From a virus: a stretch of DNA of 21,263 nucleotides. The stretch is taken from positions 1-21,263 of IMG/VR virus record IMGVR_UViG_3300005664_000125; one strand, given 5' to 3'. Both the position numbers and the translations under genes were made by a program. Numbering within the stretch: the stretch's first letter is position 1; the number at the start of each line of letters is the position of its first letter. Of this stretch, positions 4,448 to 15,587 are shown piece after piece. The notes below the pieces were generated by a model. That model was not told the DNA's origin. It made no database searches and worked only from the letters and a program-made list of their open reading frames with translations.

Positions 4448-4723
4448 ATGGAAACCAAGTTCGATCCGAAGTTCATCGCCGCCTTCGCGGTCGGGCTCTC
4501 GCTCGCGGGGCTCGCCTACATGGCGGCGATCACGTTCCTGCCGATCCCGAAGGACAACATTCGCTTCGCCGACACGATCTTGGGCTTCATCATCGGCACG
4601 GTGGTCGCCGCACCGATCGGGTTCTTCTTCGGGTCGAGCAGCTCCAGCCGCGCGAAGGATCAGACCATCAACGACATGATGCCTACTTCACCAGATACGC
4701 CGACCCCATCGGATTCTCGATGA
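4448..4723 (+). CDS. Two-TM small membrane protein, holin-like
   Basis: This 91-aa protein is preceded by an AAAGGA ribosome site about 9 bases before the ATG. It has two hydrophobic segments: residues about 10-32 (IAAFAVGLSLAGLAYMAAIT) and about 43-61 (ILGFIIGTVVAAPIGFFFG). A Ser-rich, polar tail follows (SSSSSRAKDQ and SPDTPTPSDSR). Two membrane helices, small size and a charged tail resemble class II holins, but no endolysin is visible nearby, so holin is a guess from topology. Its last 41 bases overlap the 3' end of the convergent methyltransferase gene on the other strand. Confidence 0.7.
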   Translation: METKFDPKFIAAFAVGLSLAGLAYMAAITFLPIPKDNIRFADTILGFIIGTVVAAPIGFFFGSSSSSRAKDQTINDMMPTSPDTPTPSDSR

Positions 4724-5360
4724 AGAGCGTCGGCGTGTAGTCGCGCAGGAACTCGTCGACCGCGATCTTCGCGCCGGGGAAGTTCCTGTAACCATAGTCG
4801 TCGAAGAAGATCGCGCCGCCCGTCATGAGGTGGGGGTACAGATGCCGCAACGAGGCAAGCGTCGGCTCGTACAGATCGACATCGATCATCGCGAACGAGA
4901 TCGAGCCCAAAGGCACGTCTTCGAACACATCGGGGATCCACCCCTTGTGCAGATCGACGAAGCCGAACGGCTCGACAAGCCGGCGCAGCCGATGGATGTC
5001 CGACGCGTAGTGCACGCGCTCGGCCTCGCGCTTCGCAGTCGTGTTGAACGTGTCGGAGCGGTCCTGCTCCTTGAACTCCGACAGGCCCTTGAACGAGTCG
5101 AAGACGTGCAGCCGGCCAGCACGTCCCTTCATCAGGTTAGCGATCAGCAGCGTCGAGTGACCGTGCCAGCAGCCGCACTCGACGACATCCAGAAGCGGGA
5201 ACCGTTTGACGGACTGCTCGACGAGTTGATGCAGAACGTAGTAGCGGAACTGCTTCGCATCGTTGTCGGGCTTGCCGCCCTGCGCCACGTCGATCGCTTT
5301 CCGGTAGAGCTTGCGGATCGGGTTGCCAGCAGCGAGCGAGTTGAGGACTGAAGGATTCAA
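4683..5360 (-). CDS. TylF/MycF-like SAM-dependent O-methyltransferase
   Basis: This is the last gene of the long minus-strand unit. I choose the TTG at 5360 because it makes a TTGA overlap with the preceding stop and has AAGGGG five bases upstream; GTG 5366 is the alternative. The 225-aa product has the SAM-binding loop ECGCWHGHS (residues 61-69). The strand-4 motif is MIDVDLYEPT (Asp160, Asp162) and is followed by FFDDYG (Asp187-Asp188). This pattern of acidic residues binds the metal in TylF/MycF-type macrocin and mycinamicin O-methyltransferases, which methylate sugar hydroxyls. Length fits the family. In a cluster with glycosyltransferases, a sugar O-methylation role is a reasonable inference. 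The acceptor is unknown. It overlaps the convergent membrane-protein gene by 41 bases. Confidence 0.85.
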   Translation of the reverse strand: MNPSVLNSLAAGNPIRKLYRKAIDVAQGGKPDNDAKQFRYYVLHQLVEQSVKRFPLLDVVECGCWHGHSTLLIANLMKGRAGRLHVFDSFKGLSEFKEQDRSDTFNTTAKREAERVHYASDIHRLRRLVEPFGFVDLHKGWIPDVFEDVPLGSISFAMIDVDLYEPTLASLRHLYPHLMTGGAIFFDDYGYRNFPGAKIAVDEFLRDYTPTLFIENPMGSAYLVK

Positions 5361-5641
5361 AACCACCCCTTCGCAACTTCGCCGCAGTGAACGCAGTACG
5401 GTCCGATCTCCTGACCGATGTGGAACACCTGACAGCCGCAGTCGCATTCCCACAGCTTCTCACCGCGCACAACGGGCGCGACGTAGTAGCCCTTGGTCGC
5501 GTGGCACTCCGGGCACTCCAGCTCGTGCGTGCCGACCGGCGCAACGGCGACCCATGAGTGATGGCAGACCATGCACGCGGCAGCGCCGCTCAAGTGCGGG
5601 GTGCGATCGAGCTTGGCCTGCTCCAGTGAGATCACGGTCAT
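5357..5641 (-). CDS. Double zinc-ribbon protein, unknown role
   Basis: This 94-aa protein starts at an ATGA overlap with the glycosyltransferase upstream. Cysteines sit in pairs: C23-x2-C26, C43-x2-C46, C66/C68/C70 and C83-x2-C86, which is enough for two treble or rubredoxin-like zinc ribbons. The intervening sequence (ELECPECHATKGYYVAP and ECDCGCQVFHIG) is typical of small phage zinc ribbons. No DNA-binding helix or catalytic motif is evident. Its place inside the sugar cassette may reflect a structural or accessory role in a complex, but this is only positional inference. Confidence 0.75.
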   Translation of the reverse strand: MTVISLEQAKLDRTPHLSGAAACMVCHHSWVAVAPVGTHELECPECHATKGYYVAPVVRGEKLWECDCGCQVFHIGQEIGPYCVHCGEVAKGWF

Positions 5642-6336
5642 GTCGGCAGCACCTTCCGCCACTCGTCGTCGAACGAGCCGCCCTGCCAGCCGGGCAGCCA
5701 AGGGCCCCCGAGGGTCATGTGCGCGATGCCGAGATTCTCGGGTCGGGGTTGCACGTCGACGAGCCAGTTCCACTCGGGGCCCAGCTCGCCGATCTCGCTG
5801 TCGTGCAGCCAGTAGAACGAGTGCAGATCGAGCGCGGACCGCTCGTTCACGTCGCGTAGGGTCAGTCTGCGGTGCGCCGAGTGGTAGCAGTTGAAGAGCA
5901 TCACGCTCGACCAGTTCTTCCGCGCGTAGGCGATCTGCTTCTGATCGACCATCTTGAACGACTCGGCCGGGGTGTAGGCGTGCTTGACCACCCACACGGC
6001 CTTGTCCGCCAGCTTGTCGTGCTTCAGCATCTCCCGGGGATCGCGCAGGAATACCACGTCGCAGTCGACGAACAGGGCGATCATGTCCTGACAGAGCATC
6101 GGCACGAGGAAGCGCGTGAACTTGAACTCGGTGCTGAAGGTCGCGTTCCCGGTCAGATCGTAGCCCTGCCCCCCGCGACGATCGAACGTGCGCCACATGA
6201 AGCCGTGGTCGCGCAGCTTCGGCAAATGCAGGAACTCGACGGGTGGCCGCTGCCCCTTCGAGACTTGAGACAGGCTCAAGTAGGCGGCACGCGCAGCTTG
6301 CGGCTCGCGCTCGTCGTAGCCGATGTAGATTTTCAT
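5638..6336 (-). CDS. GT8-like glycosyltransferase (GT-A fold, DxD)
   Basis: This 232-aa protein starts at an ATGA overlap with the FkbM gene, with AAGGTG upstream. It begins MKIYIGYDEREPQAARAA, a start common to phage and bacterial GT8-like transferases. It contains FKFTRFLVPML and then LFVDCDVVFLRDP, giving the metal and nucleotide-sugar binding DxD at Asp91-x-Asp93. A conserved Trp/Asn region (PEWNWLVDVQPRPENLGIAHM) near the C-terminus resembles the acceptor-site and HxxG-like end of GT8 proteins. The expected role is transfer of a sugar from a nucleotide donor. Donor and acceptor cannot be read from the sequence. It is co-transcribed with the methyltransferases. Confidence 0.82.
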   Translation of the reverse strand: MKIYIGYDEREPQAARAAYLSLSQVSKGQRPPVEFLHLPKLRDHGFMWRTFDRRGGQGYDLTGNATFSTEFKFTRFLVPMLCQDMIALFVDCDVVFLRDPREMLKHDKLADKAVWVVKHAYTPAESFKMVDQKQIAYARKNWSSVMLFNCYHSAHRRLTLRDVNERSALDLHSFYWLHDSEIGELGPEWNWLVDVQPRPENLGIAHMTLGGPWLPGWQGGSFDDEWRKVLPT

Positions 6337-7022
6337 GTCGGCACCTTCAGGATGTAGTCTCCACTGATCTCGCCCACGACCTTGTAGCCCAGGCCGATGA
6401 GGTATTTCACGGCACCCATCGGCTTCAAGCCGAATTTTTCCGCCATCGTTCGCTTCTGCTCGACGCAGACCACTGGCTGCCAGTGCTTGAGCGTGAACTC
6501 GGCGCCGCGCAGGATGAACTCTTCGTAGCCCTCGGCGTCGACCTTGATGAAGTCGACATCCTCGAAGCCGAAGCTGTCGAGCGTGCGCATCGGCACGGTG
6601 CCTTTGCCCTTCACCCACGAGTCGCCGCTGCTCGTCGGGTTCACGCGGATCGTCACCATGTCCTCGCGGTCCCCGAGAGCATGGTCCCACAGCCACACCC
6701 TAGCTAACTCTTCCGGGCCTGTCAGCAACCGAGACCCAGGCACATTTTTGAGAAAGCATTCCCGGTGCGCCGCTACCGGCTCGAAAGCCTGGATGCTTTG
6801 GAACCCCCATTCGGCGAAGTTGTAGCTCCACAGGCCGATGTGCGCGCCGCAGTCGATCATCGTGCGGCGGCGCTCCGGCGCGCAGTGCGACAGTGCGAGC
6901 TGCTGCTTCTTGCCCTGATACGCCGGCCGGTCGTTCAACATGACTCGGTTCTTGGGATCGGCGAGCCACTCGATCATGTGTTGCTCGCCATCGGGCCACC
7001 ACCAACGGTCAACGAACTTCAT
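6333..7022 (-). CDS. FkbM family SAM methyltransferase
   Basis: This 229-aa protein has an ATG in an ATGA overlap with the preceding stop and an AGGAG site upstream. The SAM-binding motif I is MIDCGAHIGLWS (residues about 55-66), with the acidic FEP at 80-82. The later segment DFIKVDAEGYEEFILRGA followed by a hydrophobic strand ending in CVEQ is the diagnostic FkbM pattern (IKxDxEGxE...vL.Ga...E). FkbM enzymes O-methylate polyketides and, very often, sugars in surface polysaccharide loci. Length is normal for the family. With the TylF-like enzyme two genes downstream, it suggests a multiply methylated glycan product. Confidence 0.9.
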   Translation of the reverse strand: MKFVDRWWWPDGEQHMIEWLADPKNRVMLNDRPAYQGKKQQLALSHCAPERRRTMIDCGAHIGLWSYNFAEWGFQSIQAFEPVAAHRECFLKNVPGSRLLTGPEELARVWLWDHALGDREDMVTIRVNPTSSGDSWVKGKGTVPMRTLDSFGFEDVDFIKVDAEGYEEFILRGAEFTLKHWQPVVCVEQKRTMAEKFGLKPMGAVKYLIGLGYKVVGEISGDYILKVPT

Positions 7023-7324
7023 GCGACTCTCCTGAGGGGGTAAAGGGCTTGCACTGCTGCCGCAGCCATCACTCGAAGCGAATAAGACACAGCCCGGGGT
7101 TCCGGCTTCCTGGGCGGAAGCTCTCGGCCGAGGATGTCGACACCGAGGATGACGTTCGGAGTCGGATCATGATCCCCAGTCTCCGTCATCCACCACACGA
7201 GAAGTTCGTCCGCGGCGAGCAAATCCTTGGGGTCCGGTAGCTCACGCCCCCGTTGCAAGGCCAAGTCGGCGATCAACGCCCATTGGGTCCGCGTGAGCCC
7301 GTAGAACCGATCCTCGGTATTCAC
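7019..7324 (-). CDS. Hypothetical phage protein (101 aa)
   Basis: The GTG start at 7324 overlaps the preceding stop (GTGA) and has AAGGAG about 8 bases upstream, so translation is well supported. The protein is soluble, with an N-terminal helical part (RTQWALIADLALQRGRELP) and a Trp pair (LLVWWMTETG). An Arg/Pro-rich stretch follows, then a C-terminal amphipathic helix. I recognise no domain. Both flanking junctions are overlapping, so it is locked into the same translational chain as the oxygenase and the FkbM enzyme. Confidence 0.7.
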   Translation of the reverse strand: MNTEDRFYGLTRTQWALIADLALQRGRELPDPKDLLAADELLVWWMTETGDHDPTPNVILGVDILGRELPPRKPEPRAVSYSLRVMAAAAVQALYPLRRVA

Positions 7325-8052
7325 GTCAGCATCTCCTTGAACAATTCCGCCTGGGACTTCGCACCGCAACCAGGGCACTCCCACGAGATCCCGATCGCGC
7401 CGCGACCGTAGACGACTTCGTGGCTCACAGTCTTCGCGTTGAAGAACCAGATCGCGCCGGGCGCCAACTCGACACGGTGCCGTGGCGTCGCGGCGCCCAG
7501 CGGACCGCCCGGCAGGGCTTGGCGCAGCGCGTAGCTCACGTCGATTGGCACGCCCGGCTTGCGCGACTTCTCGAAGAGGGCTTTCATCTGGCTTGGTGAG
7601 TCGCGCATCAGCATCGGCAGGTTCGGGCCGATGTTGTAGACCCGCGGCTCGGGCGAGACGTTGATGTACGCGGTCACGAGAGGCGCATCGTTGTGCGTGG
7701 TGTCGAAGTGCAGGGGCTCGGGGCCGGTAATCATCGGGCGCCACGAGATGCGCTCCATGATCGACTTGAAGCTGGGGTAGAGGGCCTTGAACAGCCGGGT
7801 CGCGTGCGCGGTCATGCGGCCGATCTGCTCCTGCACCTCGCGCTTCGGCACCCCTTCGTTGAAGGGTTCCTTGAAGGCGCGCTTCTTCTTGGACAGCGCG
7901 CCGTGCAGCACTCCGACATCGGCGTCCCACGGCACCTCGTCGATCACGAGCATCCGCGAGTTGATGAACACCTGCCCGGGGTGGACATCGGGGTGCCATA
8001 CCTGAACGATGTGGGGGCTCAAACCCCCGTCGAGGTGGACAACCGACTTCAC
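7321..8052 (-). CDS. 2-oxoglutarate/Fe(II) oxygenase-like protein
   Basis: The GTG start at 8052 overlaps the upstream stop (GTGA) and gives 243 aa. The metal-binding triad of the 2OG-Fe(II) fold is visible: LHFDTTH gives His115-x-Asp117, and TVSHEVVYGR gives His211, with Arg217 six residues on as the 2-oxoglutarate anchor. The intervening segment TAYINVSPEPRVYNIGPNL and the turn LAPGAIWFF fit the double-stranded beta-helix. These enzymes hydroxylate carbons; members that act on sugars (for example Kdo hydroxylase) and on nucleic-acid bases both exist. A C-terminal CPGC pair is an odd addition. Its setting among glycosyltransferases favours a sugar or lipid substrate, but this is inference. 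Confidence 0.72.
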   Translation of the reverse strand: MKSVVHLDGGLSPHIVQVWHPDVHPGQVFINSRMLVIDEVPWDADVGVLHGALSKKKRAFKEPFNEGVPKREVQEQIGRMTAHATRLFKALYPSFKSIMERISWRPMITGPEPLHFDTTHNDAPLVTAYINVSPEPRVYNIGPNLPMLMRDSPSQMKALFEKSRKPGVPIDVSYALRQALPGGPLGAATPRHRVELAPGAIWFFNAKTVSHEVVYGRGAIGISWECPGCGAKSQAELFKEMLT

Positions 8053-8558
8053 GGCTTCCTCGCCCACCAGAGCCGGCCGTTGGCGAGCAGCTCGTGCTTC
8101 GGCAGCAGCCGGCGCACACCCTCGGCCACCTCGGGGATCTCGTAGTTGTCCCCCGACATGACGCAGCCGGTCTTGACCTTCGGCAGCCACAGGCTGATGT
8201 CGGTCATGATGCCCTTGAGCGAGTGGTCGCCATCCGTGTGCCAGAAGTCGATCGATTCGTCTTCGAACAGCGGCACGGCTTCATTCGACCGCATCCAGTG
8301 GACCGTGACCTTGGGTTGCGGGCGGGCCCACTGAAGCACCTGTTGCCGGATGCCGTCCATGTGCTTCTGATCGAAGTTGCAGTAGCCGCCTTCCCACGAG
8401 TCGACGATGTACTGCTTCTCGATCGAGGGGATCGTCGCGAACAGTTGCGACAGCGCACCAGCGTAGACGCCCACCTCGACGAGCACCTTCGGGTTGACGG
8501 ACGCGGCGAGCTTGCGTGTCGCCTCACGGTAGGTCGCAGCGTTGCAGGGCTTACCCAT
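8049..8558 (-). CDS. Class I SAM methyltransferase (Methyltransf_24-like)
   Basis: This 169-aa protein has its ATG 8 bases inside the end of the GT9-like gene and a good AAGGAG site. Motif I is VEVGVYAG (residues 27-34). DFWHTDGDHSLKGIMTDI (about 104-121) is the strand-4 motif with the Asp/His pair characteristic of Methyltransf_24-type enzymes found in glycan and rhamnose-modifying loci. GCVMSGDNY follows as the next strand. Family members methylate hydroxyls of sugars or small metabolites. It is one of five methyltransferases in this cassette and is not closely similar by eye to the other four, suggesting different target positions. Confidence 0.82.
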   Translation of the reverse strand: MGKPCNAATYREATRKLAASVNPKVLVEVGVYAGALSQLFATIPSIEKQYIVDSWEGGYCNFDQKHMDGIRQQVLQWARPQPKVTVHWMRSNEAVPLFEDESIDFWHTDGDHSLKGIMTDISLWLPKVKTGCVMSGDNYEIPEVAEGVRRLLPKHELLANGRLWWARKP

Positions 8559-9309
8559 TCAGGATCTCCTTCAGGTTGTCCAGCACCATCGCTGGGGTGA
8601 TTGCCAAGAGTGACTGCCGGCAGCCCTCGCAGTCCACGCGCCGGCCGCAGGGCTTGCCCGCACGGCGCAGGTTGCGCATGGCCGGGTAGCCGGTGATGTC
8701 CGGGCTGATGTACTCGCTCCAGATGATGACCGCTGGCGTGCCCACGGCAGCCGCGGCATGCATCATCCCACCTTCGGTGCCGACGAAGGCCTTGCAGACC
8801 GCCAAGACGGCTGCAGCGAGCCGGAACGTGTCGGTCTGCACGAACTTGGTGTAGAGCAGCGGGCGCGTGCCGGCGGGCCCGCACTGCACGGTCGGGATCC
8901 GCTGCCCGTGGATCAGGCAATCGAGCTGCGACCAGTAGAGCGGCCCCCAGTCCTTGTTCCGGTGGCCGATGTCCTTCACCGAGGGCTCAAGCATCACCAT
9001 GCCTCGGAAGGGCTCTGCGAAGGCCTTCTCCGCAGCCGTGAAGACGATCTCGGCCGGGATCGGCTTGTAGGGGCGCCACGTCCACTTCTCGGGGCTCTTG
9101 GCCGCGATGTAGGGCCGATGCCCGCCGCAGTTCAACAGGCGCGTGAAGGGCCGGCCGGCAGCGCGCGCCTGCATGATGTAGGGCACCCCGTCCCACACCG
9201 GGTTCTTGATCGGTCGACCACGTGGGTCGACGATCATGACCGGCAGCTTGTTCGACTTGTGCAGCTTGCGGGCTTCGCCTGCAGCTAAAAGCGCGTCACC
9301 GATGCCCAC
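8551..9309 (-). CDS. GT9/heptosyltransferase-like glycosyltransferase
   Basis: The start is the GTG in a TAGTG one-base overlap with the preceding stop, with GTGGAG upstream. The 252-aa product opens VGIGDALLAAGEARKL, matching the glycine-rich GxGD start of GT9 enzymes. The C-terminal Rossmann half shows VMLEPSVKDIGHRNKDWG and then VGTEGGMMHAAAAVGTP (from about residue 176), the nucleotide-sugar binding motif of heptosyltransferases (D/E-GG-xHxAAAxGxP). A Cys-rich turn, PCGRRVDCEGC, is also typical of phage and bacterial GT9-like proteins. It is shorter than LPS heptosyltransferases (about 320-350 aa), so the N-domain is reduced. It probably transfers a heptose or other sugar. Confidence 0.82.
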   Translation of the reverse strand: MGIGDALLAAGEARKLHKSNKLPVMIVDPRGRPIKNPVWDGVPYIMQARAAGRPFTRLLNCGGHRPYIAAKSPEKWTWRPYKPIPAEIVFTAAEKAFAEPFRGMVMLEPSVKDIGHRNKDWGPLYWSQLDCLIHGQRIPTVQCGPAGTRPLLYTKFVQTDTFRLAAAVLAVCKAFVGTEGGMMHAAAAVGTPAVIIWSEYISPDITGYPAMRNLRRAGKPCGRRVDCEGCRQSLLAITPAMVLDNLKEILNG

Positions 9310-9815
9310 TACGGTGTCTCCACGAGCTGAAAGTCGACAGCCCCGGCAAGACGCTTGAAGCGCCCGTGCCACCACTCGATCCCTTGGATCGTGACGTGCA
9401 GGTTCGTGCCGTCAGGGAAGGTCTTCTTCGCCGGCCGGCAGCACACGCTCGCCCACACCACCTTCCTCGCGTGGTTGAACAGGTCGGCGATGAAGGGGTC
9501 CACGTCATCCTCGGGGATGTGCTCCAGCACGTCGCTGCACAGCACGGCGTCGAACCGGCGCGGGGGCAGGATCTCGTGCTTCTTGAAGGCTGGGTCGTAG
9601 AGGGCCACGTCCGGGCGCTTCAGGCCCCACTGCCGGTAGACCTTGTGCGGGGAGTGGTAGGCGTCGCCCCGGCCGCAGCCGTAGTCCAGCAGCGTGCGGG
9701 CGCGGTGCGCGCGCAGCAGCCGGCCGATCGCGTCGGAGTGCTTGAGGATGCTCAAGCCTTGGAAGTTGTCGCCGGCCTCGGCCATCTCACGGTAGAGGGG
9801 GATCAGGCTACTCAT
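9309..9815 (-). CDS. Class I SAM methyltransferase
   Basis: The start is the ATG of a TGATG overlap with the upstream stop, giving 168 aa. Motif I is TLLDYGCGRG (residues 41-50), the acidic strand end is ALYDPAF, and the post-motif segment is FDAVLCSDVLEHIPEDD (about 88-104). All are standard for class I methyltransferases of the Methyltransf_11/25 type. The short C-terminal half (WASVCCRPAKK, LHVTIQGIEWWHGRF) holds an aromatic region that may bind the acceptor. Similar genes recur in phage and polysaccharide loci. The substrate is unknown. Confidence 0.85.
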   Translation of the reverse strand: MSSLIPLYREMAEAGDNFQGLSILKHSDAIGRLLRAHRARTLLDYGCGRGDAYHSPHKVYRQWGLKRPDVALYDPAFKKHEILPPRRFDAVLCSDVLEHIPEDDVDPFIADLFNHARKVVWASVCCRPAKKTFPDGTNLHVTIQGIEWWHGRFKRLAGAVDFQLVETP

Positions 9816-10363
9816 CACACGTCCCGGATGAAGTAGCCCGTCCACTCGTCGAACGCGCCCTTCGTGAGGTGGAGGGCCCGGAACCCGCTGGCCCGCAGCA
9901 CGCGCTCGATGTCGTGCAGCACGAAGCCCGAGCGGGCATCGTAGACCTTCGGCGCGTGCCTGGGCGGCAGGCGCACGACCGCGATCCGCGCCGAGGCGGC
10001 GAGCCGCGCCGCGGCAGCCGATGGGTCGGCGAGCTTGTGCAGGACCGCGAGCATCAGCACGAAGTCGTAGGGCCGCTTCGGGGTGTAGGTCTCGGCGTTC
10101 GCCACTTCGAACAGGGCTGCCCGATCGCCTCGGGCCTTGTTCGCGTGCTCCACGAAGTCGGGCCGGATCTCGATGCCGTGCACTGCAGCCGCGCCATCGT
10201 CGCAGAGCTGCAGCGAGATGGCGCCCTCGGCACAGCCGACATCGAGGACCGAGCAACCCGGTACACGTGCGCGCAGCACGTCGAGCCCGATGAGCTGCTG
10301 CGCCAGCGTCCGGTCGCCGCCAGGGCCGAACCAGGGCTTCAGTTGCTTGCCAACCATTTCCAT
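9815..10363 (-). CDS. Class I SAM methyltransferase
   Basis: This 182-aa protein has its ATG at 10363, 25 bases inside the end of the upstream glycosyltransferase-like gene; a second in-frame ATG at 10357 is possible. SAM motif I is SVLDVGCAEGAISLQL (from residue 38) and the acidic second motif is VHGIEIRPDFVEHA. A third motif, YDFVLMLAVLHKLADP, follows. The C-terminal part (RSGFVLHDIERVLRASGF and EWTGYFI) resembles Methyltransf_11/23 enzymes. It is not recognisably a DNA methyltransferase: there is no DPPY or PPC motif. It is the first of two adjacent class I methyltransferases joined by a one-base overlap. Confidence 0.85.
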   Translation of the reverse strand: MEMVGKQLKPWFGPGGDRTLAQQLIGLDVLRARVPGCSVLDVGCAEGAISLQLCDDGAAAVHGIEIRPDFVEHANKARGDRAALFEVANAETYTPKRPYDFVLMLAVLHKLADPSAAAARLAASARIAVVRLPPRHAPKVYDARSGFVLHDIERVLRASGFRALHLTKGAFDEWTGYFIRDV

Positions 10364-11076
10364 GCCGTCCCGTTCCTGAACTCGTCGAGCGTGAACTGAT
10401 TGTCCGCGAGCACCTGGGCAAACTCAAGCCTGCCTTCGGGTCGCGGGGGGTCGAAGACCGCTTCGTAGTTGAGCGGTCCGGTCAGCGCATGCGCCGCGCC
10501 GGCCTCGCTGATCGTCGGCACCCCTTCAAGCATCGCCGTGATGCTGGCCGACGACGAGTGCGAGATCAGCAGGCGCACCGTCGACAAGGCCTCGTGCAGC
10601 ATCTCGTTCGCCTTCAGCTTGTCACGGTTCCACGGGCGCACCACGATGCCAACTGCGCCGAACGCGGCAAGCCGACGCGACACGTCACCCACCCAGTCAT
10701 AGGGCAAACCCAACGTCGACTTCATGAAGTCGTCGGACTGTGGGCACAGCAGGATCGTGCCACGCCAACCCTCGCGCCAAGGCTTGACCTCAATACCGAG
10801 CCGCTTGAACCGAGACCCGTCACTCGTCTTGCCGCGAGGGTCGACTTGCAACGCGTTCTTCGTGACGCGGAAGTAGGTGCCCCGGTGCTTGTCGAAGTAG
10901 GAGTTGTCGATGTAGAACCAAGGGCGCCCGCTGGCCTTCGCGTGCTTGAACGCACTCATCTGCCCCTCAGTGCCGAAGAACACGGCGCCATCGGCACTGC
11001 GCGGTGCACCGGCCGCGAACGCGCGGCAGATCATGTCGGACTTGGCCTTGCCGGGGACGGGGTAAAGGGTCAGCAC
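10339..11076 (-). CDS. Glycosyltransferase-like protein, paralogue of the 11156-11947 gene
   Basis: I start this at GTG 11076, which overlaps the end of the small membrane peptide by 7 bases; an ATG at 11112 is an alternative but would overlap almost half of that peptide. The 245-aa product has WFYIDNSYF near residue 53, then RFKRLGIEVKPW (89-100), VGIVVRPWNRDK, and SHSSSASITAMLEGVPTIS from 172. The last element is the nucleotide-sugar site shape of GT-B enzymes (S-x-SS...A...EG-x-P). The same sequence of elements is present in the 263-aa gene just upstream, so the pair are paralogues. The donor sugar is unknown. Phage proteins of this type are often labelled glycosyltransferase or capsule synthesis protein. 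Confidence 0.72.
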   Translation of the reverse strand: MLTLYPVPGKAKSDMICRAFAAGAPRSADGAVFFGTEGQMSAFKHAKASGRPWFYIDNSYFDKHRGTYFRVTKNALQVDPRGKTSDGSRFKRLGIEVKPWREGWRGTILLCPQSDDFMKSTLGLPYDWVGDVSRRLAAFGAVGIVVRPWNRDKLKANEMLHEALSTVRLLISHSSSASITAMLEGVPTISEAGAAHALTGPLNYEAVFDPPRPEGRLEFAQVLADNQFTLDEFRNGTAWKWLASN

Positions 11077-11162
11077 AGGAAGCGCCCCACAAAGAACCCA
11101 ATGAAGGCGCAAGCGGCCCCTGTTACCACACCGAGAAAGAAAACGGCAGTGAGACTCACCAT
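11070..11162 (-). CDS. Single-span membrane micropeptide (30 aa)
   Basis: The peptide reads MVSLTAVFFLGVVTGAACAF followed by a short IGFFVGRFLC end: one continuous hydrophobic helix with a lone Arg near the C-terminus. A perfect AAGGAGG lies 4 bases before the ATG at 11162 and 7 bases before the GTG at 11159. The GTG makes a GTGA overlap with the upstream stop and is probably the real start (29 aa). Its own stop overlaps the next gene's GTG. The strong ribosome site and overlaps on both sides argue that it is translated. It could tether the two flanking glycosyltransferase-like proteins to the membrane; that is conjecture. Confidence 0.68.
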   Translation of the reverse strand: MVSLTAVFFLGVVTGAACAFIGFFVGRFLC

Positions 11163-11947
11163 ACAGCCTCCTTGCGGTGGGCGATGATCCGCGCGAACGG
11201 CTCGCCGGTTGCGATCTCTTCGAACCCCCACTGCCCGTGGCTCATGCGGTGGAGTGCAAGCTTGCGCAGCCCGTCGCTTCTGCTGCACAAAGGGAACGAC
11301 GACAGCCGCAGGCCCCCGATCTGGCAGATCCACTTCGGCGCCGCGTAGAACACCGGGATGCCCTCGACGAGCGCGAGCACGCCCATCGAGCTGCACCAGA
11401 TCACCATCGCGAACGCGTAGCTCAAGTCGCGCACGGGATCGACCTTCGGTGCGTGGTTGCCTGGGTGCGGGATGACGCGCACCGGCACGGACGTGAGGCG
11501 GCGCACCTCGGGGTAGGCAATCTTCTCGGCCCAGTTCGGCGGGCTCGCCATCAGCGTCGAGCCGATGCCCCGCTGGCCGCGGATCACGATCTCGGTGCCC
11601 CCGGCACGCCAGGGCTTGAGCACGAAGCCGAGCCGACTGAAGCGGTCCTCGTCGCCGACCGGGAACCACCCGGACCCGTTGTGGCCGTGCACGCTGATCG
11701 CGTAGTTCGTCTTGTCGACCTTCTGCAGGTAGCCGTTCTCGGCGACGATGACCGTACCACCGAGGGCCTCCCACTGGTTCGCCTGGGCTTCGGCCGGTCC
11801 CTTCTTCCGGTTCCAGATGACGAGCCAGTCCTCGGGGCCTTCAGGGACCAGGGAGTTGACGAGCTTGAAGCCGACGCGCCGTAGCCCATCCTCGAAGGAC
11901 TGGCGACGGTAGTAGGGTTCCTTGCGGATAAGGCAGAGGGCTCTCAC
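11156..11947 (-). CDS. Glycosyltransferase-like protein (GT-B type), paralogue of the 10339-11076 gene
   Basis: The GTG at 11947 overlaps the preceding stop (GTGA) and follows an exceptionally good ribosome site, GGAAGGAGGTG, six bases away. The 263-aa protein has an N-terminal Rossmann-like region (EDWLVIWNRKKG, then GGTVIVAENGYL). RFSRLGFVLKPW lies at 102-113, VRVIPHPGNH follows, and the C-terminal signature IWCSSMGVLALVEGIP is at about 183-198. The ordered match to the 245-aa gene downstream indicates an old duplication. The EG-x-P turn after a Ser pair is where GT-B transferases bind the donor nucleotide. I am fairly sure of a glycan role, less of the exact family. Confidence 0.72.
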   Translation of the reverse strand: MRALCLIRKEPYYRRQSFEDGLRRVGFKLVNSLVPEGPEDWLVIWNRKKGPAEAQANQWEALGGTVIVAENGYLQKVDKTNYAISVHGHNGSGWFPVGDEDRFSRLGFVLKPWRAGGTEIVIRGQRGIGSTLMASPPNWAEKIAYPEVRRLTSVPVRVIPHPGNHAPKVDPVRDLSYAFAMVIWCSSMGVLALVEGIPVFYAAPKWICQIGGLRLSSFPLCSRSDGLRKLALHRMSHGQWGFEEIATGEPFARIIAHRKEAVW

Positions 11948-12546
11948 TTCAGCACCTCCTTCCAGTCCACCACCGGAAAGCACTGCATCGCAGACCCCGG
12001 AGTGGCGTTGAGCACCTCGCACTTCTCGACTTCGAGATCGCGAGCAACCTTGTTGAGCTTGTGCAGCCATTCCTCGAAAGTCTGGTTCTGCACCATCGGC
12101 GCCGGATGGTCGGCGTGATGGTGCCGCTCGCCGTTGGGCCCCAGCTTCATGTCGAAGCCGAGCAGGATGATCCGCCGGCTGCCGAACAGGTAAGCGAGGT
12201 TCAAGGCCTGCACACCGGAATTCCCGTTGATGTGGATCATGTTCTTGCCGAGCCCTTCGCGGTTCACCCCCTTCATGCGGTTCAACTTCGGCCACCTCGC
12301 TGCGGCACTATTGTCCTGGGTCCAGAGCTTGCCCGGGAACACGCGCACGATCTCGGCCATGTAGCACTTCCAGAAGAGGAAGTCGCCCGCGTAGAGGATG
12401 TTCGCCCACGGCACGCGCCGGAAGGTCGTGTTGACCACGATCGTGTCGAACCCGGAGGCGCGAGCCGCCTCGCACTGCTCGTCGGTCAGGCTCGGCCCGC
12501 TGGCGATCACGATCGCGGTCTTGTTCGACCAGTTGGGGAGGGTCAT
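11944..12546 (-). CDS. DUF115/GT42-like Rossmann protein, probable glycan enzyme
   Basis: This 200-aa protein starts at ATG 12546, five bases after the stop of a 15-codon ORF, with only a weak ribosome site, so it may depend on that ORF for translation. Motifs: IVIASGPSL (13-20), VVNTTFRRVPWANILYAGD, NGNSGVQALNLAYLFG (107-122), IILLGFDM (126-133) and a histidine cluster RHHHADH (141-147). The GxGPSL start and the NxxSG...A...LG...LxGxD end are shared by MptE-like DUF115 proteins and by Campylobacter-type sialyltransferases (GT42). Phage homologues are common. It is the first gene of the uninterrupted overlapping run, so it probably acts in the same glycan pathway. Confidence 0.75.
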   Translation of the reverse strand: MTLPNWSNKTAIVIASGPSLTDEQCEAARASGFDTIVVNTTFRRVPWANILYAGDFLFWKCYMAEIVRVFPGKLWTQDNSAAARWPKLNRMKGVNREGLGKNMIHINGNSGVQALNLAYLFGSRRIILLGFDMKLGPNGERHHHADHPAPMVQNQTFEEWLHKLNKVARDLEVEKCEVLNATPGSAMQCFPVVDWKEVLK

Positions 12547-12845: not shown

Positions 12846-13085
12846 TCACGGTCGTTGCGGCTCGTGGTTGTGCTTGGAATCCAACTGCTCAAGAGTGGTC
12901 AGTCCGAGCCGCATCCATAGCCGTTCGGCCATCGTGAGCCAGTGCAGCGTTCCGTCTCGGCAGCAAAGCAATGGGCCGTCAATGTGGTTCCATTGAATAT
13001 GCGGCCCTGCATTCGGCCCACGTTGCACCATTTCCATGTCAGGGGCAACAGCGAACTGGGCGCGCACGTTTCTGCTCTTGGTCAC
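12846..13085 (-). CDS. Hypothetical protein (79 aa)
   Basis: The GTG at 13085 makes a GTGA overlap with the cupin stop, with GGGAG upstream. The sequence has a Gly/His/Trp centre (GPHIQWNHIDGPLLCCRDGT) followed by a helix HWLTMAERLWMRLGL and TTLEQLDSKHNHEP. I recognise no family. Base composition is about 59% GC by count, lower than the flanking cassette genes. The attC-like palindrome begins immediately after its stop, the arrangement of a gene cassette. The overlap with the upstream gene argues against a recent cassette insertion. Confidence 0.65.
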   Translation of the reverse strand: MTKSRNVRAQFAVAPDMEMVQRGPNAGPHIQWNHIDGPLLCCRDGTLHWLTMAERLWMRLGLTTLEQLDSKHNHEPQRP

Positions 13086-13570
13086 AGCAGATACTCCCGG
13101 TGCGGAACCTTCCGGCCGTTGACGTTGAATCCCCAACTCCGACTCTTCGGCCCCGAGATGAACAGGGTCCACGTCGAGCCCCGCTCGGGCAGCGTGAGCC
13201 GGTGCCAGCTCGACGCCTTGCGGAACAGAACACTCCCCGGCCCCCAGTGGTTCACGTCGACGAGCCGGCCCGCGTCGTTGTAGACGGTCTCGATGTAGTT
13301 GCCACGCAAGATGACCGTGACATACCACCACGGGTGATCGTGGGGGTGGCGCCCGGCATCGCTGCGCAGGATCTCGTGCACGCGCACCGCGATGCCGAAG
13401 TGCTGCAGCAGCTTCGCGACCGGCCGGCGCCAGGACACAGGCCCGCAGCCGATACCTGTGGCGCTGCCGTCGCTGACGTAGGGCACGAGCCACCAGCGGT
13501 TCATGTAGCCCGCGAGGTGGAAGTAGGGGGTGCGCTGCGCGCGTTGGATGATGCGGTCGACGAGGTTCAT
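13082..13570 (-). CDS. Cupin-like protein
   Basis: The ATG at 13570 overlaps the methyltransferase stop (ATGA), giving 162 aa. The beta-barrel metal motif is visible as RHPHDHPWWYVTVILRGNY (His75, His77 and His79 in HPHDHP, then the conserved Gly turn). It is followed by GPGSVLFRKASSWHRLTL with His123 as the second-motif histidine. This is the G(X)5HXH...H pattern of cupins in a short phage version. The N-terminal 45 residues are helical and unfamiliar. Cupins can be sugar epimerases, dioxygenases or simple binding proteins, and this one cannot be assigned a reaction. It sits between a DNA methyltransferase and the glycan cassette, so either link is possible. Confidence 0.72.
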   Translation of the reverse strand: MNLVDRIIQRAQRTPYFHLAGYMNRWWLVPYVSDGSATGIGCGPVSWRRPVAKLLQHFGIAVRVHEILRSDAGRHPHDHPWWYVTVILRGNYIETVYNDAGRLVDVNHWGPGSVLFRKASSWHRLTLPERGSTWTLFISGPKSRSWGFNVNGRKVPHREYLL

Positions 13571-14139
13571 GTCAGAACTCCCCACTGTGTAGCCATTGCG
13601 TCTGCGACGCCTTGGTATGTCCTGCTGCGTTCTTTCCACCGATCAGGGCCCGGGGCCATGCGGTGAACGCGCGCCTCTCGCCCTTCTACTACGTTTGTCG
13701 GCTTCAACTTCGGCAGATTCTTCAACCACAGGCAAGTTGCCTTTGTCTCTCCGTGTCCGAACTGCCACGGCTGGATGATCTGATCTGGTTTGCGAATCAC
13801 CGTGCTGATGATCGAAACCGGATTTTCCAGCGCGATGTACTTGATCGGGGCGGCAAGTAGAGCGCGCACAAAATCCAATGCTCTCTGTTGCCTTCCGTCC
13901 GATCGTTTCGTCGCGAAGTGTCGGGCGCCGCTCACGGCAAGATCGGTGCATGGGGGGTGCGCGATCATCAGATCCCATCCTTCCTTGTTTTGCGACACGC
14001 GCACAGCGTCATCAGATAGGTGCCACGGGCTACCGTCCTCGGCCGGTTCGTACAGATCGCACGACCACGCATCGTGCCCGCGGTCGCGGAACGCCTGCCG
14101 GACGCGCCCACTGTATTCACACGCGACAAGGACTCTCAC
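13567..14139 (-). CDS. Short C5-cytosine DNA methyltransferase-like protein
   Basis: The GTG at 14139 overlaps the helicase stop (GTGA) and follows GGAGGAAGAAGG, giving 190 aa. It starts [17 protein letters not shown], a C5-methyltransferase motif I, and has IAHPPCTDLAVSGARHF with the catalytic-type PPC at residues 62-64 and ALENPVSI (105-107), corresponding to the ENV motif. It is about half the length of a standard C5 enzyme and I see no target-recognition domain or C-terminal motifs IX/X. Phages carry many such short Dcm-like proteins, presumably to protect their DNA. It is less GC-rich (about 55% in the rows counted) than its neighbours, hinting at separate acquisition. Confidence 0.75.
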   Translation of the reverse strand: MRVLVACEYSGRVRQAFRDRGHDAWSCDLYEPAEDGSPWHLSDDAVRVSQNKEGWDLMIAHPPCTDLAVSGARHFATKRSDGRQQRALDFVRALLAAPIKYIALENPVSIISTVIRKPDQIIQPWQFGHGETKATCLWLKNLPKLKPTNVVEGREARVHRMAPGPDRWKERSRTYQGVADAMATQWGVLT

Positions 14140-15587
14140 GCCTTCTTCCTCCGGTTCACAGCCGCGAGCAGGGCATCCTGCACGCTGATCTTCGACGCGT
14201 GCCGTGCGAGCACGTCCTCGTCGATGGTGTCCTCGGCCACGATGTCGTAGACGAACACCGGGCGATCGAGACCGGCCTGCATCTGACGCTCGGGTCCGAT
14301 GCGGCCGATGATCTGCAGGCGCAACTCCAAATCCCACGAGTTGCCGTAGAAGGCGATGATGTTCGTGACGTGCTGGAAGCCGTCGATCCCGTGGCCCGCG
14401 CTCTTCGGGTGCGCGAGCAGCATGTCGATCTTGCCGGCTTTGAAGTCGTCCTCGTCCTGCTCGCTCTTGAGCACGCGCGCCTTGGGGAAGGCCTTCAGCA
14501 GCCGCGGGATGTCGCTCTGGAACTGATAGGCCACGAGCACAGGCATGCCCTCGGCTTCCTCGACGATGCTCTCAAGGGCCTCGGTCTTCGCGCCGTGCAC
14601 CTCGCGCCACGCCTGGGCCCTCGGGTCGCTCTCGTTCTCGACGCTCGGGTCGAGGTACGCGGCGCCGTTCGCAAGCTGCAGCAGCTTGTTCGTCTTCACG
14701 CCCGCGTTGAACGCTTCGATCTCGTGGTTCTCGATCTGCGTGAAGAGAGCGTTCTCCATCTCACGGTAGTGCTTCCGGGCAGCCGGCGGCAGATCGACCT
14801 TCACGGTGCGGTAGATCGGATCCTTGATGTCGAACCAGTCCTTCGCGTCGATCGACAGGCACAGGTCGGCGACGAGTGCGTGGATCTCTTCGTCGGCGCC
14901 TTTCTGGATCACGGACTCAATGTGCGTGCGTCCGTTCGCGAGCGCATCCTGAATCCGCTTGAAGCCGAACCACCGCTCTTCGAAGCCCGAGAAGGTCTCG
15001 CCGAGCCGCTTGCCGCGATCGAGGAAATGAAGCTGGCCGTAAAGGTCTTTCAATCCAAGCGGTGAGGGGGTGCCCGTTAGCTCAATGAAGTGGCGTAGGA
15101 ACGGGTGCCACGCCATCTTAGACAGGGCCTGGGCCGTCACCCCGCCCTGTGTTGCACGGTACGCCTTCAGCTTGCGCGACTCATCGGCGATGATCGTGCG
15201 GAACGGCATCTTGCCTTTCAGGCGATCGACGAGCCACGGGATGTTTTCATAATTGATCGTATAGAGGCGACTCGTCGCGCAGCCGAAGAGGGTCGCCACG
15301 GCTTGCTCCCGCTCGGCTGCAGCGCCGATGATCTGGCACACGTCGATGTGCTTCGTGTGCTCCCACTTCCGGGTCTCTTCACGCCACACCTTGCGCGCGA
15401 CGCGCAGCGGACCGATCGCGAGTGCCGGCCAAGCATCGTCGTGGATTAGGTCAAGGGCATCGAGCGCAGTGAGAGTACAAATCGTCTTACCCAAACCCAT
15501 ACCCATCCAAAGGGCGCACCTTGGGTTTTGCAGGATGTGTCCGATTGCGGTGCCTTGATAAGGCAGGGGGGTGAACGGCTTGCTCAC
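14136..15587 (-). CDS. SNF2-type superfamily 2 DNA helicase/translocase
   Basis: The GTG at 15587 overlaps the HNH stop (GTGA), giving 483 aa. The N-terminal Q-like element [12 protein letters not shown] precedes Walker A GMGLGKT (29-35). Motif II is [10 protein letters not shown] (DES at 135-137, the DExx-K form of phage SNF2 proteins), motif III LTGTP (170-174) and motif [13 protein letters not shown] (425-435). The protein is complete, and its length is normal for phage SNF2-like helicases that sit next to VRR-NUC nucleases in replication modules. It presumably remodels or unwinds DNA during replication or recombination. It is not a hexameric replicative helicase, and neither that nor a primase is seen in the window. 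Confidence 0.92.

Follow-up and report, generated by a model that had tools for sequence, protein, structure and literature searches.

What does a bacteriophage make with a row of predicted glycosyltransferases, methyltransferases and an oxygenase encoded side by side? The question is raised by a 21,263-base viral record from IMG/VR (IMGVR_UViG_3300005664_000125; the whole of this stretch is called the window below), in which 14 minus-strand open reading frames (ORFs) run from position 12546 to 4683. We number these cassette genes from g1 (11944-12546) at the 12546 side to g14 (4683-5360) at the 4683 side. An earlier note on this DNA had seen here fourteen genes joined by 13 overlaps of 1-25 nucleotides (nt) and rich in sugar-handling and methylating enzymes, and the ORF coordinates together with Pfam and PHROG scans bear this out. 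There is one MptE/DUF115/GT42-like protein (g1), with four glycosyltransferase-like proteins (g2, g4, g7 and g12), five methyltransferases (g5, g6, g8, g11 and g14), a 2-oxoglutarate (2OG)-Fe(II) oxygenase (g9), a Cys-rich protein (g13), a membrane peptide of 30 amino acids (aa; g3) and one unknown (g10). The answer that we favour, and consider moderately probable, is that a protein of the virion receives a glycan, assembled and methylated by soluble enzymes from host sugar nucleotides, perhaps those of 3-deoxy-D-manno-oct-2-ulosonic acid (Kdo) and heptose.

Conservation of the gene set

The widespread core of the cassette, comprising g1, g2, g4, g5/g6, g7, g11 and g12, recurs in more than 100 uncultured phage contigs. 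A scan of IMG/VR with a g2 profile returned 113 contigs with relatives, of which 80 were taken into the locus set. Among the 50 loci with at least four cassette genes, the gene order of the window is kept in 727 of 756 gene pairs and all 292 cassette genes are co-stranded. Gene calls in the relatives were mechanical and the loci are not all independent even after dereplication at 70% g2 identity, which leaves 43 loci and order kept in 631 of 654 pairs; the maximum reached in 5000 shuffles was 385. The earlier note had read the genes as one functional unit with a defined product, and suggested searching phage databases for the ordered set. The set recurs, the opposite of a pattern of independent insertions, and its conserved order and strand in unrelated phages support the idea of a single unit well.

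The set is also present in cultured phages. When 50,697 phage records were searched by tblastn with the cassette genes concatenated, homologues of g1, g2, g4, g12, g6 and g7 emerged in one block, on one strand and in nearly the same order, in the Caulobacter jumbo phages (CcrColossus gp126-gp131, CcrPW, J4, CcrSC and relatives). Their block differs from the cassette in having six genes only, without g5, g8, g9, g11 and g14; it lies between a tail-fibre-like gene and the endolysin and is annotated piecemeal. The passages searched in the phiCbK/CcrColossus genome paper mention neither sialyltransferases nor the glycosyltransferases of the block, its two ‘glycos’ mentions referring to an endolysin domain (PMC3556154). 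The earlier note, which knew of no described system of such composition, needs correction in that related loci were already present in sequenced phages (CcrColossus, CcrPW, J4 and others), unnoticed as a system.

Detection of relatives depends strongly on the query. A scan of viral contigs with the single g1 sequence gave no match, alignments being needed. In genome contigs, a 4-sequence g2 profile found no loci and a 60-sequence profile found nine, so that the former result marks a limit of sensitivity; eight of the nine are metagenome-assembled genomes (MAGs). The hidden Markov model (HMM) of g4 also picks up g2, and separate counts of the two were therefore taken from tblastn. When loci were anchored on g12 instead, a g2/g4-type protein was also present in 61 of 80 and g1 in only 4, and g12 therefore has a wider life outside the cassette.

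As for the accessory genes, a scan with a g9 profile identified seven other contigs in which the extended set is largely kept and in order, with both g8 and g9 present and g14 in at least five; g13 is found in two. In a further group of loci (L043, L048, L053, L079 and L085 among them; families F26, F35 and F34), some cassettes have a flavin adenine dinucleotide (FAD) oxidoreductase, a short-chain dehydrogenase/reductase (SDR) and an extra GT-A glycosyltransferase in place of g5-g11, and others have a radical-SAM/SPASM protein. Both appear to be alternative tailoring modules. A contig binned as the archaeon Candidatus Methanoperedens (L190:3785-14000) has g1, g12 and four genes of g2/g4 type along with a methyltransferase, an FAD oxidoreductase and a GT-A glycosyltransferase; it is a phage placed in the wrong bin or else a carrier that is archaeal.

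Compactness plays no part in this argument. From g1 to g14 the overlaps measure 4, 7, 7, 25, 4, 1, 8, 4, 4, 4, 4, 4 and 4 nt, and the earlier note considered such gap-free packing distinctive. However, 8 of the 13 junctions upstream of the cassette also overlap by 4 nt. Tight packing is therefore a genome-wide property and no evidence for a cassette, and we rejected it as the sign of a special operon.

Genomic context of the cassette

Structural labels for the surroundings of the loci came from PHROG scans of representatives of the neighbour families, with transfer by HMM. The neighbours recognised in this way include terminase, portal, head protease, major head protein, head-tail adaptors, head closure, tail completion, tail terminator, major tail and tape measure proteins. 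When loci were clustered on g2, 49 of the 68 lineages proved to have the cassette in the head/tail operon or within a few genes of it, usually with the major head protein on one side and head closure or tail genes on the other. In seven lineages, that of the window included, it follows a helicase and in two it lies between tail fibre and endolysin, ten being left unassigned. The MAG contigs show the cassette in the same context.

The conservation of order and strand in unrelated phages, at differing genomic positions, shows that the cassette moves as a unit, and it has passed among three or more kinds of phage backbone. Pairwise identities of g1 correlate with those of g2 (Spearman correlation 0.47) more closely than the identities of either gene do with those of portal (0.13-0.17), as co-transfer would predict. 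The complete Mesorhizobium sp. M1B.F.Ca.ET.045.04.1.1 chromosome (NZ_CP034448.1, at about 4.01-4.03 Mb; locus L188) carries, directly upstream of terminase and portal, a cassette with g1, g12, three genes of g2/g4 type, an FAD oxidoreductase and a GT-A glycosyltransferase. This locus is probably a prophage and, since the cassette adjoins terminase and portal in a bacterial chromosome, a temperate lifestyle is possible for some carriers.

A collagen-like protein with Gly-X-Y repeats (family F10; L049:5857-6834 and 21 other loci) is often encoded just before g1, and its C-terminal domain resembles the end of portal-family profiles. It is a possible glycan acceptor in those phages. As a universal acceptor it was rejected, being present in 22 loci only.

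In the window, the genes upstream of the cassette are replication genes (polymerase, helicase and others) on the same minus strand, and downstream genes lie on the plus strand, convergent on the cassette. The helicase of the upstream operon, u5 (14136-15587, minus strand; PHROG 62, E 6e-130), serves as a marker ahead of the cassette in the lineage of the window, and its homologue precedes the cassette in L008, L010, L012-L016 and L018. Also upstream are u4 (13567-14139), a short cytosine-methylase-like protein (PHROG 757, E 5e-71) with PPC where a PCQ motif is usual, and u3 (13082-13570), a small protein with no Pfam match, which contains an HPHDHPW motif and by eye resembles cupins. A 61% identical copy of u3 directly precedes g1 in L168. 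Among the phages searched, the window has one near-identity DNA match only: over 246 bases, u4 is 78% identical at the DNA level to the Burkholderia phage Bcep1 DNA methylase. In a close relative, a 52.5-kb record (L010/G002), the convergent operon encodes an endolysin, a spanin, a 1199-aa protein, a major head protein, a head-tail adaptor and an internal virion protein, a set that points to a podovirus-like lineage for the window. The window starts (1-57) within a run of 17 proline codons at the margin of an 1183-aa ORF, possibly an assembly edge effect or the low-complexity linker of a larger protein.

Predicted enzymes

A third-position GC content of 0.82-0.93 supports the coding status of 12 of the 14 genes, the values for g3 (0.65) and g10 (0.70) being weaker. 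Several cassette genes start with GTG, and g14 requires TTG at 5360 (or GTG at 5366). The first product, g1 (200 aa), is a putative glycosyltransferase. It matches PHROG 4603, labelled ‘alpha-2,3-sialyltransferase’, with E 1.6e-41, and scores 26.4 bits with the Pfam MptE-like family, under the cut-off of 34.6. Its profile matches the sialyltransferase CstII in the PDB weakly, at E 0.008. Ferritin matches ranked above this were dismissed as artefacts: unrelated engineered ferritin fusions score best among them, and it is the sialyltransferases that align over the expected region.

The proteins g2 (11156-11947; 263 aa) and g4 (10339-11076; 245 aa) are paralogues (BLASTP E 1e-7) and their family is present as several tandem copies in relatives. 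Like g9, g10 and g13, they have no significant match in Pfam or PHROG. An AlphaFold2 model of g2, made from an alignment of 60 relatives, is confident (pLDDT 96), and the 28 best Foldseek matches to it are all chains of the retaining β-Kdo transferases KpsC, WbbB and KrkA. Fold comparison gives Z scores of 12.6, 12.5 and 9.7, respectively, with the next unrelated fold at 8.3, and KpsC is the only match of the g2 family profile in the PDB (E 0.012). The whole-chain GT-B fold is shared, g2 being the shorter at 263 aa against about 300-400. However, the Asp nucleophile of these enzymes (D160 in KpsC, D232 in WbbB) is absent: residues 120-129 of g2 contain no conserved acid across 60 sequences, the register being extrapolated from a KpsC alignment that begins at residue 167. 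In the region where the nucleophile would lie, Arg126 is invariant. Since the nucleophile is not conserved, we describe g2 as a predicted Kdo-transferase-fold protein and not as a Kdo transferase.

Of the remaining glycosyltransferase-like proteins, g7 (8551-9309; 252 aa) is GT9 heptosyltransferase-like. It exceeds the cut-off of Pfam Glyco_transf_9 (PF01075; 23.6 bits against 22) and its family profile matches heptosyltransferase II (1psw) at E 8e-10, suggesting a relative of heptosyltransferases. The GT-A (GT8-like) protein g12 (5638-6336; 232 aa) matches PHROG 28018 at E 7e-44 and contains a DCD motif, D91-C92-D93, invariant in the alignment.

The oxygenase g9 (7321-8052; 243 aa) has an HxD...H iron triad (H115, D117, H211) invariant in 8 sequences. 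In its model, of low-to-moderate confidence (pLDDT 64), the top five fold matches are all entries of the Kdo 3-hydroxylase KdoO, with Z 16.4 over 216 residues at 13% identity, and the next family follows at Z 12.6. The predicted fold, with its triad, is thus nearest to that of KdoO. The adjoining g8 (8049-8558; 169 aa), a methyltransferase matching Methyltransf_24 (E 8e-14), is 69-80% identical in the seven contigs that share it. Other methyltransferases are g5 (9815-10363; 182 aa; class I S-adenosylmethionine (SAM)-dependent; Methyltransf_25/11, E 2e-10), g6 (9309-9818; 169 aa; SAM-dependent; Methyltransf_23, E 7e-8; PHROG 24759, E 3e-22) and the FkbM-type g11 (6333-7022; 229 aa; Methyltransf_21, E 2e-16). 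Finally g14 (225 aa) is of TylF/NovP type, matching Pfam TylF (PF05711) at E 2e-18 with 67.4 bits against a cut-off of 23. Its PDB matches, NovP, mycinamicin III 3''-O-methyltransferase and CalS11 (E 5e-13 to 3e-7), suggest a resemblance to sugar O-methyltransferases.

Of the small genes, g13 (5357-5641; 94 aa) is double zinc-ribbon-like, with four CxxC/CxC-type Cys pairs. Its relatives in L008 and L090 are 42% identical by tblastn; an HMM count of 14 loci was rejected because many were out-of-frame ORFs over neighbouring genes. For g10 (7019-7324; 101 aa) no relative was found in the relatives' loci searched. The only strongly transmembrane-looking product is g3 (11070-11162; 30 aa), a single-helix micropeptide of hydropathy 2.37 and uncertain coding status; a hydrophobic peak in g2 falls on a strand of its confident globular model. 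The cassette has no multi-span membrane protein, and Pfam and PHROG scans recognised no gene for sugar-nucleotide synthesis in it. We therefore infer that its enzymes would be soluble and use host precursors.

A probable virion glycan and its rivals

How might these enzymes work together? Soluble, cytosolic glycosyltransferases would draw on activated sugars of the host to assemble a short oligosaccharide, with the GT42/DUF115-like protein as starter or capper alongside two GT-B enzymes of Kdo-transferase fold, the heptosyltransferase-like GT9 protein and the GT8-like GT-A protein. The KdoO-like oxygenase and up to five methyltransferases would then hydroxylate and O-methylate it. The acceptor would most likely be a virion protein (head, connector or fibre), and particles would exit the cell bearing a methylated glycan that could protect them or alter their surface interactions. 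What the analysis shows of this is the gene content, order, context and predicted folds, from which the donor sugars, the acceptor and the benefit are inferred. The earlier note had offered a virion glycan or a host-surface glycan as the product; gene context favours the former without proving it. We rank it above modification of the lipopolysaccharide (LPS) core, given that the cassette stays with structural genes in most lineages and that no membrane machinery is present.

Several points weigh against a virion glycan. In the window and its closest relatives the cassette terminates the replication operon, outside the structural operon, and the counts of genomic context hold for g2-bearing loci only, loci having been collected via g2. 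The acceptor protein is itself putative. The Kdo/heptose flavour comes from three fold or profile matches (g2, g9 and g7) and is weakened by the missing KpsC nucleophile, which makes a Kdo donor for g2 uncertain, and by the modest g9 model, g9 also scoring below the cut-off of the Pfam Kdo hydroxylase family (PF11004; 12.8 bits against 25). Furthermore, a Kdo/heptose-like toolkit is also what modification of the LPS core would need.

The main rival follows from this last point. The cassette might remodel the LPS inner core of the host, or another surface glycan, blocking the adsorption of competing phages or the trapping of virions on debris. The LPS inner core is made of Kdo and heptose and is assembled at the cytosolic face of the membrane, and in the cassette g2/g4 recall the fold of Kdo transferases, g7 that of heptosyltransferases and g9 that of Kdo hydroxylases. 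The hint from the Mesorhizobium chromosome that some carriers may be temperate would also fit, and a review of jumbo phages reads large cyanophage clusters of glycosyltransferases, methyltransferases and 2OG oxygenases as a surface change directed against other phages (PMC7824862). On the other hand, expression would be late in the head/tail operon, in or beside which most lineages hold the cassette. The cassette has neither membrane flippases nor multi-span enzymes of Gtr kind, so that it does not resemble the Gtr-type serotype conversion set of multi-span flippase GtrA and membrane glycosyltransferase. Moreover, its carriers are mostly free viral contigs, with only nine genome contigs. On balance we judge LPS remodelling rather unlikely.

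Production of a small glycoside, a diffusible or cell-retained secondary metabolite decorating no polymer, seems very unlikely. Enzymes of the TylF, FkbM and 2OG kinds commonly serve in antibiotic tailoring, and g14 is close to NovP and CalS11. A metabolite role has also been proposed for one class of cyanophage cluster (PMC7824862), but the cassette has no gene for making an aglycone, for export or for resistance, and its frequent place in or beside the head/tail operon argues against such a role. Less probable again is hypermodification of phage DNA, in which the oxygenase would hydroxylate a base and the glycosyl- and methyltransferases extend it. An oxygenase with glycosyltransferases follows the logic of known base-hypermodification systems, and the cytosine-methylase-like u4 lies just upstream. 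Yet KdoO is the best match of g9, and g7 and g14 resemble LPS and sugar enzymes; the cassette core recurs with head/tail genes, but u4 did not appear as a recurrent gene family in the loci of the relatives. A place for g9 in the TET/JBP family is still possible, although the fold matches listed for it include no such entry. Least credible, and largely refuted by the order test, is the view of the genes as unrelated cargo gathered at one hotspot with no common product: accessory genes do differ among loci (FAD oxidoreductase, SDR, radical SAM, extra glycosyltransferases), but order and strand are strongly kept across lineages and genomic positions, and g1 and g2 diverge together better than with portal.

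Glycan cassettes in phages are already known. In Corndog-type (Cluster O) mycobacteriophages, an O-methyltransferase and glycosyltransferases lie between portal and protease and the authors suggested capsid modification (PMC4351075), and phage Che8 is reported to have glycans on its capsid (Freeman et al. 2023, as cited in PMC11256854). These systems share phage-encoded glycosyltransferases and an O-methyltransferase with the cassette, but have fewer genes and actinobacterial hosts, and the parts of these sources available describe no Kdo-transferase-fold pair or KdoO-like enzyme. The cyanophage clusters of P-SSM2 type have many glycosyltransferases, methyltransferases and 2OG oxygenases and are read as modifying host-surface polysaccharide (PMC7824862); unlike the cassette, they also encode sugar-nucleotide synthesis (epimerases, kinases and nucleotidyltransferases). 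No paper describing the cassette was found in the open-licence literature, and its composition, mobility and Kdo-type folds appear undescribed.

The most specific form of the virion-glycan reading can be put forward only tentatively. It is that the cassette is a mobile virion-glycosylation locus of unrelated tailed phages, which would give the particle a hydroxylated, O-methylated glycan resembling the LPS inner core in its Kdo and heptose, through a new Kdo-transferase-fold subfamily lacking the Asp nucleophile. To our knowledge, the recognised examples of virion glycosylation come from a few actinobacteriophages, and in phages of Gram-negative hosts it has seldom been sought. With more than 100 viral contigs, cultured Caulobacter phages and a Mesorhizobium locus, the presence of a sugar coat on the virion and its composition are now directly testable. 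The cassette further draws attention to an enzyme family of Kdo-transferase fold, as yet uncharacterised, whose active site is altered.

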